DNA of 64,000 bases from Parietichytrium sp. I65-24A (taxonomy: Eukaryota; Sar; Bigyra; Thraustochytrida; Thraustochytriidae), in contig BLSF01000069.1 in NCBI GenBank assembly GCA_012862575.1, positions 124,001 to 188,000 on the forward strand, in the 5' to 3' direction. How positions within the stretch are numbered: the stretch's first letter is position 1; each line of letters begins with the position of its first letter. The position numbers and the translations under genes were made by a program. Under the pieces are notes generated by a model. The model was not told the origin of the DNA. It saw only the letters and a program-made list of their open reading frames with translations, and ran no database searches. Shown piece by piece: positions 3,200-11,754 of the stretch.

Positions 3200-3780
3200 T
3201 AGACTAGCTCTAAAGAGTGTTTGCTGCGCTGATTGCCTTAGAGTCTAAGGAAGAAGGATAGTTTCTAAATTCTAAATTCTAAATTAGATGTACTTTGTTT
3301 ACTCTGTGGCGAATTGGCATGCGCTCGAAGGGCGATGGAGTTAGTTCTTGATGGGACCAAGCAGACAGAACGATTTTTAAGATGGCAAGTGGAAAGTGTC
3401 GTCGATGGAATCGGGATTGGTAATGTCTCTGCTCCGAACCTCATGACCGTTTCAGGGAAAGACGCCGAATGGGCCGAAGTGAGCCCAATGCGAAGCTGTC
3501 AAATGTGGCGGAGATGGGATACAAGGAGGCGTTTCTTCTTTCCGCGAAGTGGGTTCTGGCTTGAAATGGGCGCTCCTGTCAGCTGGCTGCCATCGGAGCT
3601 GGAATGGGGTGGCTGAGGAAGGAAAGGACGACAGATAGGATAAGAAAGCGCTCTCCCTATCTTGGCGTTGGTGGTCTCTCTGAAGAAAAGAAAAGAAGAG
3701 AAAGAGATGAATTTCAAGGTGCGGAAGGCATCTGATAATAAATATGCAAAAAAAAGGTTGGGTGCCTTCGAATCAAATTC
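3200..3780. other. Intergenic region, no supported gene
   Basis: A plus-strand 100-codon frame at 3314-3616 has no recognisable domain and no supporting context, and overlapping frames on the other strand are equally open. It is treated as 3' flank of the GH28-like gene. Confidence 0.4.
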
Positions 3781-5592
3781 TCAAGCGTCATCAAGCTTAA
3801 CGCTCTCTATCGCAGATATTCTACTAGAGTTCAAAGACCCTTTCGTGTCAGCTTTCTTTCGTCGCTGAAGGAAAGTGAACCCGGCAGTCACAGCGACAAC
3901 TAGCACGAAAACAGAAAGACATACAACAAGCGGCACAACAAACTTTGGCACGCACTCAGAGGTATCAGAGCTTCCATTGGTCTCATCCACAAAACAGCTG
4001 GGGACCGGCCAAGTGTCTCCCAACGCGACTGCATTTTCGACTCCTTCGCATCTGTAGTACACTTCAGTATCCCCTGTCGTGCTGCTCACGTGACCGAGCC
4101 ACGCACCGACGATTGAGATTCCGACCACAAGCAAAGTTGCTGTGATGGCGGTGCACAGACGCACTTTGCGATGAGAGTCACAGAACGTTTTTGTGCAGCA
4201 ACCTTTTCGCCAACAGAGCGCACAAGGTAGTAATCCGAAAACGACAATTCCGGACAAAATCATAAGGATCATGTAGGCTATGTAGGGATCACTGATGCTC
4301 GTGGGGAGGTTTGGAAAAGTGTCCTCGAAATTTGACAAGTCCGACTCGCAGAGAGTCACTCGAACGTTGTCGAAGGTTAGGTTTCGAATTGGAAACGATT
4401 CATCAGCAAGAATCACTCCGGGGCTTCCTTTTGGATTGCGGATTTCAATGTTTCGGAACATCAGGTTTGTGTAACTAGAGTTTGGCATTCCAAAACACTC
4501 TGCACCTGGGATCGTCGGCCAGCAAATAGAGCAGGGGTTCGCGTAGCACAGTGCGCGAGTGTCTGACTGCTGTGCTGGACCGATCCAGATCGGCCACTGC
4601 TCGTTGTTGTCGATAATTATGTTTTCGTAGGTGATGTCGCTCACGGAACCGAACCCATCGCGAGTGTTTCTGAACTTCATATATATGCCTTTGTGCGAGT
4701 TGTGCAGAACGCAGTCCCGAAATGTGACGTTCCTTACTGACGAGCTTCCGATAGAGCCAATTGTGAGGCCGACACCGCTAGCGTTGACCCTCTCCACTAG
4801 GACGTTTTCCGTTCCGTCTTTGACTGCGATACAATCATCCTGACTATACACGGTCACGTCATGGACGTGTATGTTTTTTCCTGTAAAGTCGAATCCATCG
4901 GTGTTGAAGGCGGTCATGTCCATGATTCTGTGGCCATCGTTCTCCGTTCGCCGAGCGGAGATATCAGAGTGTCTGATGATGAGTCCATCCACCCGCTTGA
5001 AGTATGTCGTCCAATAAGGCGAGTCCAGGAAGAGCAACTTTTCGACCACAATGTTGCTCGAATCCGTGGTGGCAAGAATTCGCGGTCTATCTTCTGCGTG
5101 GCGCAAGTATCCCAGTCCAGGGAGCCACCACCACTTGTGCCCATTGCCATCCAAGACCCCGCGCGCGCTATTGGACGTGAATGTGACGTTGTGTACATTG
5201 TCAAAGAGAAGGCACTCGAGGACGTGCCCAGCTTTCGGCACTGCATGGCCGCCGTCTTCGTCTGTCTGTGGGCCTGCGCTTCGGGGCCACTCTTCAATGT
5301 GGTCCGAGAATCGCAGCGTCCCATCAATTCGGATCACAACGTCACTGATATTAAACACCTGAATCCCGCCCATCGTGGTGAACACGTTATCTTGGGGCAC
5401 CACGAACACGTCTCCAGGTTCGAGCGAATTCAGCGTCTCATTGAGCAGCCGGCCATTTGCAAGAGCCACTTCCAGGCTCTCGTCCCCAGCCACGCCACCG
5501 ACTTGGCTGAACACAACCTCATCACCACAGACGACCCGCGCAGCCAAATTAGCCACCGCAGCCACCGCTGCCGCGAGGAGCAGCTTTCCCAT
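3781..5592 (-). CDS. GH28-like beta-helix protein with three C-terminal membrane segments
   Basis: The open frame begins at 5661, but I chose the ATG at 5592 because the 603-residue product then opens with a good signal peptide (MGKLLLAAAVAAVANLAA). Positions below use the longer 626-codon frame. Residues about 75-440 form a glycoside hydrolase family 28 (polygalacturonase-type) right-handed beta-helix: NTDGFD at 253-258 and QDDC at 274-277 match the catalytic Asp motifs. The usual GHG motif is GVG (296-298), so the conserved His is missing, and RIK is replaced by YMK (327-329). Strongly hydrophobic segments lie at about 461-483, 504-523 and 574-597, with a Cys-rich loop between, ending in a basic tail (QRRKK). 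Family knowledge suggests pectin or polyuronide hydrolysis. The altered motifs make another substrate or loss of activity possible. It is probably a cell-surface protein with the beta-helix outside. Confidence 0.85.
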   Translation of the reverse strand: MGKLLLAAAVAAVANLAARVVCGDEVVFSQVGGVAGDESLEVALANGRLLNETLNSLEPGDVFVVPQDNVFTTMGGIQVFNISDVVIRIDGTLRFSDHIEEWPRSAGPQTDEDGGHAVPKAGHVLECLLFDNVHNVTFTSNSARGVLDGNGHKWWWLPGLGYLRHAEDRPRILATTDSSNIVVEKLLFLDSPYWTTYFKRVDGLIIRHSDISARRTENDGHRIMDMTAFNTDGFDFTGKNIHVHDVTVYSQDDCIAVKDGTENVLVERVNASGVGLTIGSIGSSSVRNVTFRDCVLHNSHKGIYMKFRNTRDGFGSVSDITYENIIIDNNEQWPIWIGPAQQSDTRALCYANPCSICWPTIPGAECFGMPNSSYTNLMFRNIEIRNPKGSPGVILADESFPIRNLTFDNVRVTLCESDLSNFEDTFPNLPTSISDPYIAYMILMILSGIVVFGLLPCALCWRKGCCTKTFCDSHRKVRLCTAITATLLVVGISIVGAWLGHVSSTTGDTEVYYRCEGVENAVALGDTWPVPSCFVDETNGSSDTSECVPKFVVPLVVCLSVFVLVVAVTAGFTFLQRRKKADTKGSLNSSRISAIESVKLDDA

Positions 5593-6698
5593 CTCGCACG
5601 TCTTTCCGCAGGCCTCGTCTCCGGCTCCGAGGCACCTGTCGCACGAGGAAGAGACACGCAACCAGAGATGGAGAGATGGAGAAAGAGATTTGGAATGACT
5701 GATGGGACTGACACGATTGACGTCTCATCGCACACTTGACTAAACTGTTAGAGAGCTTTCAATCTGCGCTCTTCGTCTTGGATGACCTTTCGCGAAACAT
5801 GAGTTGTAGATGTTGTAGTTGGCCAAACCCTCCACAATAACTTTGTGCATCTATGCATATGTGCAGAGGATTTGATCGTCCGAAAAGAATACATTCTTTT
5901 CTTTTGAAAGCTAAAAGCAAAAGCAAAAGGAAAGCAAATGGAAAGAAACGAATAAGGCAAACGAAAAAGAGAGTGTTGAGGATTGATTTTTAGTTGGAAT
6001 CTCATCTTTTGAGACGTTCGAGTGCACACTTTCGCAATCACTAATTGCCGCTACACCGCAGCTACAACCAAACTCCATCTTCTTCCCATGCAAGGGTGTT
6101 AAGCACGAAGATATGTGAATCATTAGTCGCACACCTCTTCTCTAGAAGCTGCTAGAAGCCACTTGCGCATCGGTAACCTTCATTATAAGAGGCGTAGGAA
6201 TGCGTGGGAGAACAAAGAACTGTTGTTAGGGAAGTGCTGGCTAAAGAGGTAGTGTTGACTGGCACTTCAGATTAGCTTTTCACTGTTTGGCGTAGCTGCC
6301 AGCTAGATACTACACTAAATTATAAGAAGTCGAGCCCAAATTCCGTGAAAAAATATTTGAAAAATTCCCATTAAATTCCATCAAAAATTCACAATTCACC
6401 TTTTTCATCTCCCAAGGTCGCGGAACCCATTCATGCTCGCTTAGCATCGTAAGGTATCGTAAGATATCGTAAGCGTCGTACACACGTTACCACTCGTTAC
6501 TATGCGTTACCATGCGTTACAATCGTTCCATTGCGTTCCTCTCAGTACTGTGTACTCACTGTGAGCACTACTGAGAGTGAGTACCGGGTAGGTAGGTAGC
6601 GTACGTACACGTACAGCCGTTACAGCCGGTCAGCCGTTACAGACAGGCGTTACAGTAGTACTAGTAGAGGCAGGCGTTGGCGGTGCAGTTAGTAGCCG
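5593..6698. other. Intergenic region with repeated CGTTAC/CGTAAG words
   Basis: This lies between the divergent GH28-like and Met-repeat genes. No gene was recognised. From about 6440 to 6665 there are dispersed short words (ATCGTAAG, GCGTTAC, CAGCCGTTACAG, GTACGTACAC) that form an imperfect, partly palindromic array upstream of the plus-strand gene. Confidence 0.5.
6447..6537. repeat. Imperfect CGTAAG / CGTTAC repeat cluster
   Basis: Three TATCGTAAG-like units are followed by five CGTTAC-like units (ACGTTACC, TCGTTACT, GCGTTACC, GCGTTACA). CGTAAC and CGTTAC are reverse complements, so the cluster has inverted character. It lies about 160-250 bp upstream of the 6699 start codon and may be promoter-associated. 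Confidence 0.55.
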
Positions 6699-8975
6699 TT
6701 GGACGGAATGGAGGTACGCGCGGCGTGCGAGAGGCTCGAGCGCGGCATCAGCAAGCTGTGGTGGCCGCCTTCACCGTCGGGCGCTAGCTCAGGACACGCA
6801 GGCTTACATGATGCAACAACAACAACAACGCCAATGGGAACGACAATGCCAAGGACAATGCCAATGCAAATGACAATGCCAATGACAATGCCAATGACAA
6901 TGCCAATGCCAATGGGAACGACAATGCCAATGACAATGCCAATGACAATGCCAATGGGAACGACAATGCCAATGACAATGCCAATGACAATGGGGCTCCA
7001 TCTTCCGGAAGACATGGCGGAGTTCTCCTTGGCTGTCGCAGAGGTGCGGGCCACCGTCGCGAGAACGCACGAGTTGGCGGTGTCGATGTCGATGTCAATG
7101 TCAATGTCATCGCGCGCTGGCGGGTTTGTGAAGAGGATGTTGGACGGGGAGATGGCGCTGTTCGAGTTGGTCAAGTGGCTTCAAGGGAATGTTGGCGTGC
7201 TGGCATCTGGCGCGAGCGTGACCTGGGAGCGCGACCTGGAGAATGGGACCAAGTGCTACGTGGGAGTGCAGGAGGCAGTGCTTTGTGGGGTCCTGGCGCC
7301 GTGGACGGTGCCGGAGCAGCTTGGGCTTGACTATATTGCGCGGCTCTTGGTGGGCCTGTCTCTTCGCACGGTTCGAAAGGCTGTGGTGTGGGATGCTCTG
7401 CTTGCAGTGGCGCGAAGGCCGGACGCAACAGATGGCCTCATGAAGCTGGAGAATTTTGTGTCGATCGACGCGTTCCTTGCGGCTCTCAGGCAAAGAGTGC
7501 CGCCCTTGATTTCCAGAGTTTGTCAGCTTTTGCACGCGTCGCGTTCGTTGGGCATTCACTGCTCCAAGTTTCTGTTTGAAGGCTGGCTGGTACAGTATTT
7601 TGTGAAACGGAAAAAGTCCAAAGAGATGGCTACAACGCTCAGCCGGCTTGGGTACATTCTGAGCACCGAGGGCCGTGACCTTCACGGCGTGGAGCCGCAT
7701 GTTGTTCAAGCAGCTTCAGAGTGGGTGGACTTGGTCATTCAGACTGCAGTCCCGCCGCCTTCACCCTGCCCTAGCGCACGATACTGCAATCTAGTTTGCA
7801 TCAACGGTGAAAACCTGCTTCAGCTTTTAAATGTTTGTTACATCTTTGTGGAGTGTTCTGAGACTTTGCGATCATCTTCTTCTGAGTCAAAACCGGATGT
7901 TTTGACCACTTCAGCCCACGTTTCCTTACCAGAGGGAAAGCTCGGCGAGCTGAAAAGTCTGCTGTCAAATCTGAGGCTGGAGGAGCTGCACAGAGATGGC
8001 GTGTTTTCCGCGGAGTGCACTGTCGTACTTTCCATGAATTCTGCGGCCGACCTCGATGAGCACGTAGCAAGTATTCGCTGGCGCGCTCGGGAGTTGAAAT
8101 CACTGATTTCCAGGGTAGAAGAGGCTCTTGCTAGAGAAGCATTGCTCAAGGACAGCCAGGTTGCGGTGTCAAACCGTGTTCGGGAGCTAAATTCACTGTC
8201 TGAGGAGTGTGAAAGCCTTTCGCACCAGGCATTCATAGTGAGCAGTGCAAACGCTCAAGTAAAGGAAGAGCTTGCGTACTTTAAGGCGGTGGAGAGCTAC
8301 TTGCAGGCCCAAGTTCTGTCATCGACGTCGCCTGGCGAGAAGCCAGAGAGATCACGCTCTACGTCGCCGCGGAAGGCTAATAAAGTGAGGAAGAAAGAGA
8401 AGAGAAGAGCGGGAGGCAAAGCTTCTGGCAACAACCCGCATGCACAGATGACTGACACTAAAGAGGAGAAGAAGCAGGGCGACGAGCTGGAGCAGTGCAT
8501 TGGGGTGATGCTTGCCCCGGCGGAGTTTTTGGAAAAGATGTACACAGCTGTGCCCGGGCTCGATAACCAAATTGTTAATAAAAGCACGGCCGGGCACCTA
8601 TGCAAGTACAATCTCTCCGATGATCGGAGCTGCATTGTAGTGAGCGCACTTCACGATACCCTTGGGGATGCTAAATTTGTTCCAATAGACGATATCGTTA
8701 AAGCCGACATGGGTCTTGCTGATTCGTGCTCTCGCGCAGACGGAATTCGGTGGAGCTCTTCGCTTGGTTGCTGCTTCTACATTGTTTTGAAGAATGGTGA
8801 CACAGTGCAACTCGTCGCCAGAAGCGAAGAGCTCGCACTCAGCTGGGTGTTTGGTTGTCAACACCTAAGCTCAAGAATACGAAACCCTTGGGATTCTCAG
8901 AGGTACAGAGAAGCCCGGCGTCTGTCCGCAACACGTCGCTATGAGACTAGCGACGCGGTCAGCGGTATGCTGTAG
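6699..8975 (+). CDS. Large protein with Met/Thr/Pro repeat and possible C-terminal PH-like domain
   Basis: 758 residues in one exon; not assigned to a known family. Residues about 46-98 are a low-complexity TMPM/GTTMPM repeat, encoded by a 12-bp ACAATGCCAATG unit, followed near 125 by an SMSMSMSM run. Residues about 130-350 are helical and globular (for example GYILSTEGRDLHGVEPHVVQ), perhaps an armadillo-like or GBD/FH3-like fold. Residues about 430-540 look like coiled coil (WRARELKSLISRVEEALARE), followed by a basic linker (KANKVRKKEKRRAGG). The C-terminus (about 595-735) has the pattern of a pleckstrin-homology-like domain, with FYIVLKNGDTVQLVA and a closing helix containing LALSWVFG. Together this resembles a membrane-associated signalling scaffold, but that is inference. 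The ATG at 6702 or 6708 is an equally possible start. Confidence 0.72.
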   Translation: MDGMEVRAACERLERGISKLWWPPSPSGASSGHAGLHDATTTTTPMGTTMPRTMPMQMTMPMTMPMTMPMPMGTTMPMTMPMTMPMGTTMPMTMPMTMGLHLPEDMAEFSLAVAEVRATVARTHELAVSMSMSMSMSSRAGGFVKRMLDGEMALFELVKWLQGNVGVLASGASVTWERDLENGTKCYVGVQEAVLCGVLAPWTVPEQLGLDYIARLLVGLSLRTVRKAVVWDALLAVARRPDATDGLMKLENFVSIDAFLAALRQRVPPLISRVCQLLHASRSLGIHCSKFLFEGWLVQYFVKRKKSKEMATTLSRLGYILSTEGRDLHGVEPHVVQAASEWVDLVIQTAVPPPSPCPSARYCNLVCINGENLLQLLNVCYIFVECSETLRSSSSESKPDVLTTSAHVSLPEGKLGELKSLLSNLRLEELHRDGVFSAECTVVLSMNSAADLDEHVASIRWRARELKSLISRVEEALAREALLKDSQVAVSNRVRELNSLSEECESLSHQAFIVSSANAQVKEELAYFKAVESYLQAQVLSSTSPGEKPERSRSTSPRKANKVRKKEKRRAGGKASGNNPHAQMTDTKEEKKQGDELEQCIGVMLAPAEFLEKMYTAVPGLDNQIVNKSTAGHLCKYNLSDDRSCIVVSALHDTLGDAKFVPIDDIVKADMGLADSCSRADGIRWSSSLGCCFYIVLKNGDTVQLVARSEELALSWVFGCQHLSSRIRNPWDSQRYREARRLSATRRYETSDAVSGML
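6819..6993 (+). repeat. Coding 12-bp minisatellite (ACAATGCCAATG)
   Basis: Tandem units of ACAATGCCAATG, interrupted by GGAACG, occur inside the 6699-8975 coding frame and stay in frame, giving alternating Thr-Met-Pro-Met. Because 12 is a multiple of 3, length changes would not break the frame. Confidence 0.9.
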
Positions 8976-9372: not shown

Positions 9373-11754
9373 TTAAGATTCCGTACCCACAGATGACTTG
9401 AGGTTTGATGGCGGCGCGATCGAGTTTGCGACTTGAGTCACTTTGGACCCGGAGTTGGTGGTCTTTGGGTCTTGCATGTTCTTGTAACCAGCATAGATGC
9501 GGGAACCTGCAACAAGCAGCGCGGTCATGACTGTTGCAATGAAGATGCAAATTGAGACCATCACGCCTAGCATCGTGACGGAAACGCCGTCCAACATGCT
9601 CAGTGCGATAGCGAAGGTGAAGAAGATCGCGGCATTGTAATTACTGAAGAACATGAACTTTGCCTCACCAAAAATGACTCCGCCAAAGTTTTTGGTTTGC
9701 TGAGCAAGGATGCAAGAGATCACTAGAATGATGAAGCCGAAGAACACGTACAGGAGAAGTAGGATCGAGTTTGGCTCGCAAACTTGGTTTTTGATTCCGT
9801 AGTCTTCGTCCACGACCTCTATGGACACTGGGCTACCATGCACCGTGTACAAAACGAGAGCCCAGATTCCACAGAGAATTGAGGAAACCAATACTAGGAA
9901 CACAAACTGGTAGCGCAGGATGATGGTCTTCTTCCTTGCGTCCTTCCTGTCCAACTTGTACTTGACTCGCATAAGCGAAGTGATAATGTACTGTTTGACA
10001 AGAAGGGATCCACTGAAGAAGGCAAACCCTATTATGACGAGAAAAGCTCGGGCAAGACACTTCATTTCAGAAACCTCTCCGATTCCGAGGACCGACGAGA
10101 TATTGAGAAGCGCAGCACCAAATAAAAAGTTGAGCATGGTCCAAACGCGCGCAGCTTTGATCGCTGGTGTTGATCTCAGCGCGACGATTCCGACGCCAAG
10201 GCAGGCTGTGATCACGATTGCAAAGACCGCAAAGAAGATGACGATGCTGCTTGCACCATTGTCCGCCGGCACGTAAGAGCATGGGAAAGTGATGGACTCC
10301 TTCGTAATCGGATGCCTGGACGTCGTCCACCTGGACTTGTACACTGTTTCTTGTGTGGTTGGATCCTCCAGCTGGCAAAGGCCATCTGGAATTTCCCAAG
10401 AAACGAACCCGACCTCCTCGTACATACTGGAGGCGTACATTTTGTACACGGGTTGGACAGCGTCTGTGTTGCATCCGCACCCAAAGTAAGTCGGGCGCAA
10501 ATTCTCGTTAAGCCAAGGCTTTTGAGCAAATTGGTTCTCTGTTGCGTTGGTCCACATCTCATACGTCTCAGGTTTCTGCTTTACCCAATCACAAGCGATC
10601 TTGCGGTGGTTATTGTCGGTGAGGAGGGCCTCCTTGAGGAGCTGCTCTTGCTGCTCAGTGGAAGTATACTTGAAGGCGGTGAGGAAAACCGAAACGTCTG
10701 GCATGTTCTCAGAGAGTCTCTTGGCGATAATCTTGTAGAATGTCTCCGTGGGGTAGTCGCAGTCTACATGGTCGCTCTCCCAAGTAGATTGCGAGAATGC
10801 GGGAAGCATTATATTTGTCAAGTTGTGTACTTGGAAAAGCGCATGCGGTTTCCAAAAGTAGAATATAATCGGATTGCGCGTAGCTACCGACTCCTCCAAA
10901 GCAGCAATGAGATTGTCTTCCGAGACGGCAAACTCCATGGTGAGGTTTAAATTCAAGTTTTTAATCAGCTGATCGTCCACCTGAACCCAGTCAGGCGCCC
11001 CCGAGATGAAGCGGCCTCCGTAGGTGGACGGTCTCAGTGACAGATCTGCGTCACACTCCGCGGATGACGCGAAGCCTCCGTTGGCCACTGGAGTCCCGAG
11101 GAGCTCTTCAGACGGCATGCAAGGGAACGTGGTAACATCGTTCGCACCATACAGATCTGTGGGGCAACATGAGGCGTTACTGTTTGGGTTGCGAAAAATA
11201 AGAGCATTGTCGTCTTTGGCGAGAGTGCGCCAGTATTCGAGGGACGGGTCGTGGTCTTCCAAAACGTAGGAGGGCATGAACCATCCAATCTTGCCAGTCG
11301 CTCCGAGGGTTCCAGCGTCTGTGACGAGGCCATCTCTGATGACGTATTCGTTGTAATTCGTTTGGTGGCCGCTGGGCCAGACCTCCAGAATGCCGTCGAT
11401 GATACCAGCTCGCAAGCGAGGCCACATGCCACTCTGTTCATCTCCTTCGGCATTCTGCTCCAGCTCGTCATTGAAGATTTCCACTGGGTACCCAAGGAAC
11501 TCCTCGATAAAGATTGCAGCAAGGTGGACGTTGAGCGACGACCCTGTCCAGCTATTGACGCCCAGTTTCACCGCGCAGGGATACACGCCGTCCACCTTCT
11601 CGCACCTGAACCGCTTGCCGTCCTGCTTCTCCCAAAACGACTCTTCAAAGCAGCAATTCTCCTCATTCTCTGCACACGAGAGCTCCAAGCTTCCTGCTCC
11701 ATGTGCGGCGTGCGCACACAAACTGCCCAGCAGCAAACCAAGTCCTGTGCGCAT
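9373..11754 (-). CDS. OpuAC (glycine betaine-binding) domain fused to class C GPCR 7TM
   Basis: 793 residues, single exon. A signal peptide (MRTGLGLLLGSLCAHAAHGA) leads into residues about 61-400, which match the substrate-binding protein of betaine/proline ABC importers (OpuAC, type II periplasmic-binding fold): NSWTGSSLNVHLAAIFIEEF, LEVWPSGH (W126), KIGWFMPSY (W158) and FYFWKPHALF (W301). In bacterial homologues such aromatic residues cage the quaternary ammonium group. A Cys-rich linker (about 420-495) connects to seven hydrophobic helices at about 502-526, 536-557, 563-590, 612-638, 660-685, 700-722 and 726-750. The segment FGEAKFMFFSNYN (695-707) corresponds to the conserved NEAK region before TM6 of class C receptors. 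The tail is short and Ser/Thr-rich. The inferred role is a cell-surface receptor for an osmolyte such as glycine betaine, proline betaine, choline or DMSP. Ordinary class C receptors use a type I (LIVBP-like) ligand domain, so this pairing is unusual. Confidence 0.9.
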   Translation of the reverse strand: MRTGLGLLLGSLCAHAAHGAGSLELSCAENEENCCFEESFWEKQDGKRFRCEKVDGVYPCAVKLGVNSWTGSSLNVHLAAIFIEEFLGYPVEIFNDELEQNAEGDEQSGMWPRLRAGIIDGILEVWPSGHQTNYNEYVIRDGLVTDAGTLGATGKIGWFMPSYVLEDHDPSLEYWRTLAKDDNALIFRNPNSNASCCPTDLYGANDVTTFPCMPSEELLGTPVANGGFASSAECDADLSLRPSTYGGRFISGAPDWVQVDDQLIKNLNLNLTMEFAVSEDNLIAALEESVATRNPIIFYFWKPHALFQVHNLTNIMLPAFSQSTWESDHVDCDYPTETFYKIIAKRLSENMPDVSVFLTAFKYTSTEQQEQLLKEALLTDNNHRKIACDWVKQKPETYEMWTNATENQFAQKPWLNENLRPTYFGCGCNTDAVQPVYKMYASSMYEEVGFVSWEIPDGLCQLEDPTTQETVYKSRWTTSRHPITKESITFPCSYVPADNGASSIVIFFAVFAIVITACLGVGIVALRSTPAIKAARVWTMLNFLFGAALLNISSVLGIGEVSEMKCLARAFLVIIGFAFFSGSLLVKQYIITSLMRVKYKLDRKDARKKTIILRYQFVFLVLVSSILCGIWALVLYTVHGSPVSIEVVDEDYGIKNQVCEPNSILLLLYVFFGFIILVISCILAQQTKNFGGVIFGEAKFMFFSNYNAAIFFTFAIALSMLDGVSVTMLGVMVSICIFIATVMTALLVAGSRIYAGYKNMQDPKTTNSGSKVTQVANSIAPPSNLKSSVGTES

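Follow-up and report, generated by a model that had tools for sequence, protein, structure and literature searches.

Probable class C receptor with a bacterial-type betaine/choline-binding ectodomain in an apparently non-opisthokont protist

A single-exon frame of 793 amino acids lies on the minus strand (9373..11754, ATG to stop) of the window analysed here, a stretch of 64,000 nucleotides from contig BLSF01000069.1 (contig C69 of a 42.5 Mb genome with 172 contigs). In this frame a substrate-binding domain of the OpuAC family precedes a seven-helix (7TM) domain of the 7tm_3 family. The frame probably encodes a class C G protein-coupled receptor (GPCR) in which a type II substrate-binding domain of the bacterial betaine/choline kind serves as the Venus-flytrap ligand domain; the host protist is apparently not an opisthokont.

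Pfam identified both halves of the receptor. OpuAC (PF04069) matched in two stretches with 81.2 bits (E 1.2e-22), far above the curated cut-off, and 7tm_3 (PF00003) matched residues 501-746 with 79.5 bits (cut-off 33.5; E 4.1e-22), covering profile positions 7-245 of 251. The third match at E ≤1, Fer4_23, reached only 12.5 bits. In a sequence search of the PDB, the first half matched glycine-betaine-binding proteins and the second half matched GABA-B2 and calcium-sensing receptors, and the predicted model of the ectodomain has a type II substrate-binding-protein fold. The OpuAC domain spans residues 57-405 (10540..11586; minus strand, as are all receptor features below), and the class C helices, placed by the 7tm_3 match and conserved sites, span residues 498-760 (9475..10263). 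A 19-residue hydropathy scan found six distinct hydrophobic blocks in residues 495-756, the last of which (about 700-756) could hold two helices; a single-sequence structure model of the helices had a mean pLDDT (predicted local distance difference test) of 49.5, too weak to use. The two domains are joined by a linker (residues 406-497, 10264..10539), delimited by Pfam and paralog alignment, with four conserved cysteines (426, 428, 460 and 492). An earlier note on this DNA had described an intron-free frame here, naming no strand, had expected both Pfam families, and had pointed to a GEAKF motif before the sixth transmembrane helix (TM6), and all of these agree with our results, the motif lying at residues 696-700 (9655..9669) at the start of TM6. 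Its "Cys-rich linker" holds as to the four cysteines, but the nine-cysteine NCD3G linker domain of class C receptors had no match in the window receptor (Pfam, E up to 1); nor, at the same threshold, had the type I ligand domain (ANF_receptor). The fusion of an OpuAC-type domain to true class C helices also bears out the proposal that a bacterial uptake-type module was reused in a eukaryotic receptor.

The fusion is not confined to the window. A whole-genome search located OpuAC at three places (six stretches) on three contigs, and at all three it shares an open frame with 7tm_3. Identity between the window receptor and its two paralogs is 57% and 62%. Silent differences between the paralogs (pS) were 0.73-0.90 in the ectodomain, linker and helices, near saturation, while replacement differences (pN) stayed much lower, at 0.21-0.28 for the ectodomain, 0.22-0.27 for the helices and 0.32-0.35 for the linker. 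Because pN is low relative to near-saturated pS in all three parts, and the parts stand in one frame in the paralogs, the ectodomain, linker and helices are maintained together. Judged from this comparison, the OpuAC-7tm_3 frame is not a chance frame or a chance fusion. The C-terminal tail (residues 761-793, 9376..9474) is not conserved among the paralogs (pN 0.51-0.67). At the other end, residues 1-20 (11695..11754) form a putative signal peptide, judged by eye; they fall below the hydropathy threshold in the window receptor and barely exceed it in one paralog (L003). The segment that follows (residues 21-56, 11587..11694) keeps C27, C34, C35 and C51 in all three copies.

The ectodomain apparently retains an intact aromatic cage of the kind that holds a quaternary ammonium group, in the sense that its residues are present, as distinct from their geometry or binding. 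We compared the receptor with the pockets given in the available parts of the published accounts of TmoX, which binds trimethylamine N-oxide (TMAO; W55, W102, F106, E131, W177, F220, W222), DmpX, which binds dimethylsulfoniopropionate (DMSP; W35, T64, W84, E113, W152, A153, Y200, W202), and E. coli ProX (W65, H69, W140, G141, C142, W188). W126 (11377..11379) corresponds to TmoX W102, DmpX W84 and ProX W65; W256 (10987..10989) to TmoX W177, DmpX W152 and ProX W140; and W301 (10852..10854) to TmoX W222, DmpX W202 and ProX W188. W69 (11548..11550) matches the N-terminal Trp of the bacterial relatives, presumably TmoX W55 and DmpX W35, and ProX has Thr at this site. H130 (11365..11367) falls on ProX H69, which the source table lists as stabilising the carboxyl group of the ligand, and on TmoX F106. 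Y299 (10858..10860) falls on DmpX Y200 and TmoX F220, and the Glu shared by TmoX (E131) and DmpX (E113) is Ile156 in the receptor. W126, W256, Y299 and W301 were placed on TmoX and DmpX via HMMER alignments to 4xz6 and 7yle, with positions counted from the alignments, and W69 and the ProX residues by MAFFT. All six residues (W69, W126, W256, W301, H130 and Y299) are invariant in the three paralogs. Four tryptophans had been singled out before, W69, W126, W158 and W301; all exist and three belong to the cage, but W158 aligns with TmoX W133 and DmpX W115, neither of which is a published pocket residue, and the cage residue W256 had been overlooked.

In the mechanism we propose, an extracellular osmolyte with a quaternary ammonium group, such as glycine betaine, choline or proline betaine, would be enclosed between the two lobes and gripped by W69, W126, W256 and W301, with H130 positioned for a carboxylate. 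Lobe closure would be signalled to the seven helices by way of the Cys-containing linker, and the helices would then activate a heterotrimeric G protein. The receptor may work as a dimer, and its physiological output may be the sensing of food or of osmolytes.

The helices belong to a large receptor set. In the genome, 82 stretches match 7tm_3, some being pieces of one gene. We scanned 30 class C receptors: the 20 top-scoring stretches (with 4.5 kb upstream), seven more (with 1.5 kb upstream) and the three OpuAC receptors. At E 0.001 their ligand-domain matches included Bmp (12), ANF_receptor (8), Peripla_BP_6 (5), kelch-type (4), OpuAC (3) and SBP_bac_1 (1); matches may overlap, as for Peripla_BP_6, and the shares are no census, being skewed to high scorers. 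One 7TM family bears many kinds of ligand domain. The suggestion that the receptor had evolved independently is therefore not upheld, as its helices are one of the 82 7tm_3 matches and it is the ligand domain that differs. In four of the 30 receptors a kelch-type beta-propeller stands in frame with the class C helices.

Across the 30 receptors, Cys is invariant at sites 566 and 659 and Trp at site 631, site 587 is Lys in 28 and Arg in two, and site 697, within GEAKF, is Glu in 28 and Asp in two; the OpuAC trio all have K587 and E697. We take C566 and C659 to be the cysteine pair between TM3 and the second extracellular loop (ECL2), and K587 and E697 the Lys (TM3)/Glu (TM6) pair. The genome also contains G-alpha (24 stretches, 17 above cut-off). 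Pieces of G-alpha are clustered in both orientations at C45:94234-103090.

To place the ectodomain among bacterial proteins, several searches were made. A pattern scan of genome contigs with the three receptor domains gave 41 stretches that fit the pattern and no confirmed relative, and a scan of viral contigs with the full receptors gave 64 such stretches and again no confirmed relative. A tblastn search of the domain against plasmids returned 31 records, the best from Nonomuraea (E 1e-20). After one Nonomuraea protein was added to the alignment, a second genome-contig scan confirmed 73 loci among 131 pattern matches, all labelled actinobacterial except L084 (Chloroflexota). Since this sample is biased by the search patterns (FYFW[KD]PH and a VKxxxNxW motif), we do not claim an actinobacterial donor. 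In a 25-row tree with 15 of the 73 loci, the receptors adjoin that group of relatives with support of 97/96, under a long-branch warning. The 73 relatives have Trp at sites 69 and 126 and Tyr at site 299 without exception, His at site 130 in 67 and Ile at site 156 in 72. Their available flanks, searched by tblastn (E 1e-10) with reference genes taken from the Nonomuraea locus L065 and named by NCBIfam, carry a choline-dehydrogenase-like stretch in 45 of 73 and a ChoXWV/ProW-type permease-like stretch in 70 of 73. At L065 itself (3357-5281; NZ_LT559118.1) two tandem OpuAC-type binding proteins follow a double permease gene and precede choline dehydrogenase. Two stretches matching the binding protein occur at 55 of the 73 loci, and may be two genes or pieces of one.

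Our best guess from these comparisons is that the ligand is choline or glycine betaine, because H130 and I156 are shared with relatives flanked by choline-dehydrogenase-like and permease-like genes. DMSP and TMAO are less favoured: at the site of the Glu on which TmoX and DmpX rely, the receptor has Ile156. The gene content of the genome suggests that the organism handles betaine-type solutes: there are three loci for BCCT-type transporters (C23:126485-128134, C4:446616-448286 and C4:471193-472845; frames 813-862 aa long), with some 23 kb between the two on C4, and choline-dehydrogenase-like genes, the best of which scores 620 bits, under the equivalog cut-off of 732.1.

Several observations weigh against the reading of the protein as a betaine/choline-type GPCR, some concerning its ligand and others its coupling. 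As to the ligand, the two best structural matches of the ectodomain are DmpX and TmoX, neither of which binds betaine. Identity to six named solved relatives is 13-22%, and the score for the choline-binding family TIGR03414 is 31.9 bits against a cut-off of 379.05; with values so low, the exact ligand is not readable from the sequence. The second lobe also carries a Cys-containing insert of about 49 residues (195-243, 11026..11172), absent from the aligned bacterial relatives, which was not modelled with confidence (pLDDT <50) and might reshape the pocket. The pockets of the bacterial relatives are not identical to that of the receptor, since site 256 is Tyr in 44 and Phe in 29, never Trp, so that this third Trp is not shared with them, and site 301 is Tyr in 43 and Trp in 30. 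The domain might instead bind some other small ligand, either cationic or zwitterionic (DMSP, TMAO, carnitine, acetylcholine, ergothioneine or an amino acid), so that the receptor would respond to nutrients or prey cues rather than osmolytes. This alternative, in keeping with the nearest solved structures, with Y299 on DmpX Y200, and with choline, carnitine, acetylcholine-sensor and ergothioneine binders among the further structural neighbours, is a possibility of some weight, though we consider it rather improbable. Y299 is not specific for DMSP, as E. coli ProX likewise has Tyr there, and H130 falls on the carboxyl-stabilising His of that protein. The replacement of the TmoX and DmpX Glu by Ile156 counts further against it: in published work, Pelagibacter TmoX no longer bound TMAO once the corresponding Glu was mutated. 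This and the following alternatives are not mutually exclusive, and the likelihoods given to them do not sum to one.

As to coupling, Ile590 occurs in the OpuAC trio alone, where the other 27 receptors all have a TM3 Arg, and Ser751 likewise, where 26 of the 27 have a TM7 Pro and one has Ala. A tree built from the helical domains of all 30 receptors unites the trio as a clade with 100/100 support and gives it a very long branch, of 4.11 changes per column. Given I590 and S751, the receptor could couple in a changed way or not at all. GABA-B receptors divide the work, ligand binding falling to one subunit and coupling to the other. The trio-specific residues, together with this division of labour, lend something to the idea that the ectodomain no longer binds a ligand and the receptor is the non-binding partner of a heterodimer, or that its helices no longer couple. 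We consider it unlikely, somewhat more so than another ligand, as the cage residues and the K587/E697 pair are invariant in all three paralogs and purifying selection acts on the ectodomain and the helices to a similar degree. It is very improbable that the frame is an assembly artefact or two neighbouring genes read through, as the same fusion stands at three places on three contigs, each time in one open frame with a conserved linker, and genes of eukaryotic type are among those flanking the receptor in the window.

Among the other frames of the window are some for eukaryotic-type proteins, for example a DRG-like GTPase, an ABCA1-like transporter and a Casc1 protein (the DRG and ciliary readings being drawn from Pfam names). 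In the 17 scanned of the 19 window frames of at least 260 aa, receptor included and shorter exons left out, no ABC permease or ATPase partner was found near the receptor, the sole ABC protein being the ABCA1-like one. A GH28 (polygalacturonase-type) gene lies about 3.7 kb from the receptor (3781-5661, minus strand), and a 758-aa frame at 6699-8975 (plus strand), which gave no Pfam match at E 1e-5, carries a repeat rich in Met and Pro close to its start.

The EF-1alpha of the genome reads WYKGPYLLEALD, without the opisthokont insertion, an insertion that we take to be a marker of opisthokonts. By this protein the source lineage is most likely neither a fungus nor an animal. Fused TPI-GAPDH and tandem acyl-carrier arrays are further lineage markers. 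In this genome no fused TPI-GAPDH was found, TPI and GAPDH matching on separate contigs, and no tandem acyl-carrier array of the thraustochytrid polyunsaturated-fatty-acid-synthase kind; both are weak misses. Two long open frames of 4460 and 5583 aa (C7:19811-27643 and C66:7956-22997) have several PP-binding domains and are perhaps polyketide synthase- or nonribosomal peptide synthetase-like.

The receptor shares its helices with GABA-B, mGlu and CaSR, including, by our naming of the sites, the TM3-ECL2 cysteine pair and the TM3/TM6 Lys/Glu pair. Those receptors differ in their type I ligand domain and, for mGlu and CaSR, in the NCD3G linker. Bacterial TmoX, DmpX, ProX, ChoX and OpuAC serve ABC importers, whereas the window receptor is fused to seven helices and has the Cys-containing insert. 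The pairing itself is already known: Krishnan et al. 2012 (PMC3251606) reported OpuAC on six class C receptors of Allomyces macrogynus, in a very large class C repertoire of 78 members, with PF04069 N-terminal to 7tm_3 in AMAG_01750, 04252, 14324, 14326, 15836 and 17562, and the available part of that paper mentions neither cage residues nor a ligand for them. Allomyces is a fungus, in contrast to the window genome with its EF-1alpha lacking the opisthokont insertion, and here the pairing comes with sequence evidence for an intact ligand cage. Class C receptors of gut fungi commonly have type II substrate-binding domains as well, but these resemble sugar-uptake binding proteins, and OpuAC has no occurrence in the main text of PMC5168858. 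Seven diatom receptors have domains of the periplasmic-binding-like type, and in three of these, from P. tricornutum, the domains are sugar-transporter-like (PMC3727952); OpuAC is absent from the available text of a 2025 survey of animal relatives (PMC12716839). In a literature search for OpuAC with 7tm_3 or GPCR, with most subscription papers outside its reach, only PMC3251606 was relevant, the other paper found being judged by its listing.

Taken together, the chances seem to us evenly balanced that this protist, from a lineage that is neither animal nor fungal, senses extracellular osmolytes of the glycine betaine/choline type with a GPCR whose captured bacterial substrate-binding domain keeps all four Trp of the cage, the receptor being one of a set in which a single 7TM family is combined with many kinds of ligand domain; the fusion may have an origin separate from that in Allomyces. 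Since the cage seems intact and the ectodomain could be expressed on its own, the ligand is directly testable. If binding is positive, it would show class C receptors gaining new senses through swapped-in bacterial uptake domains. The receptor also bears on the sensing of betaine, choline and similar solutes in single-celled eukaryotes.
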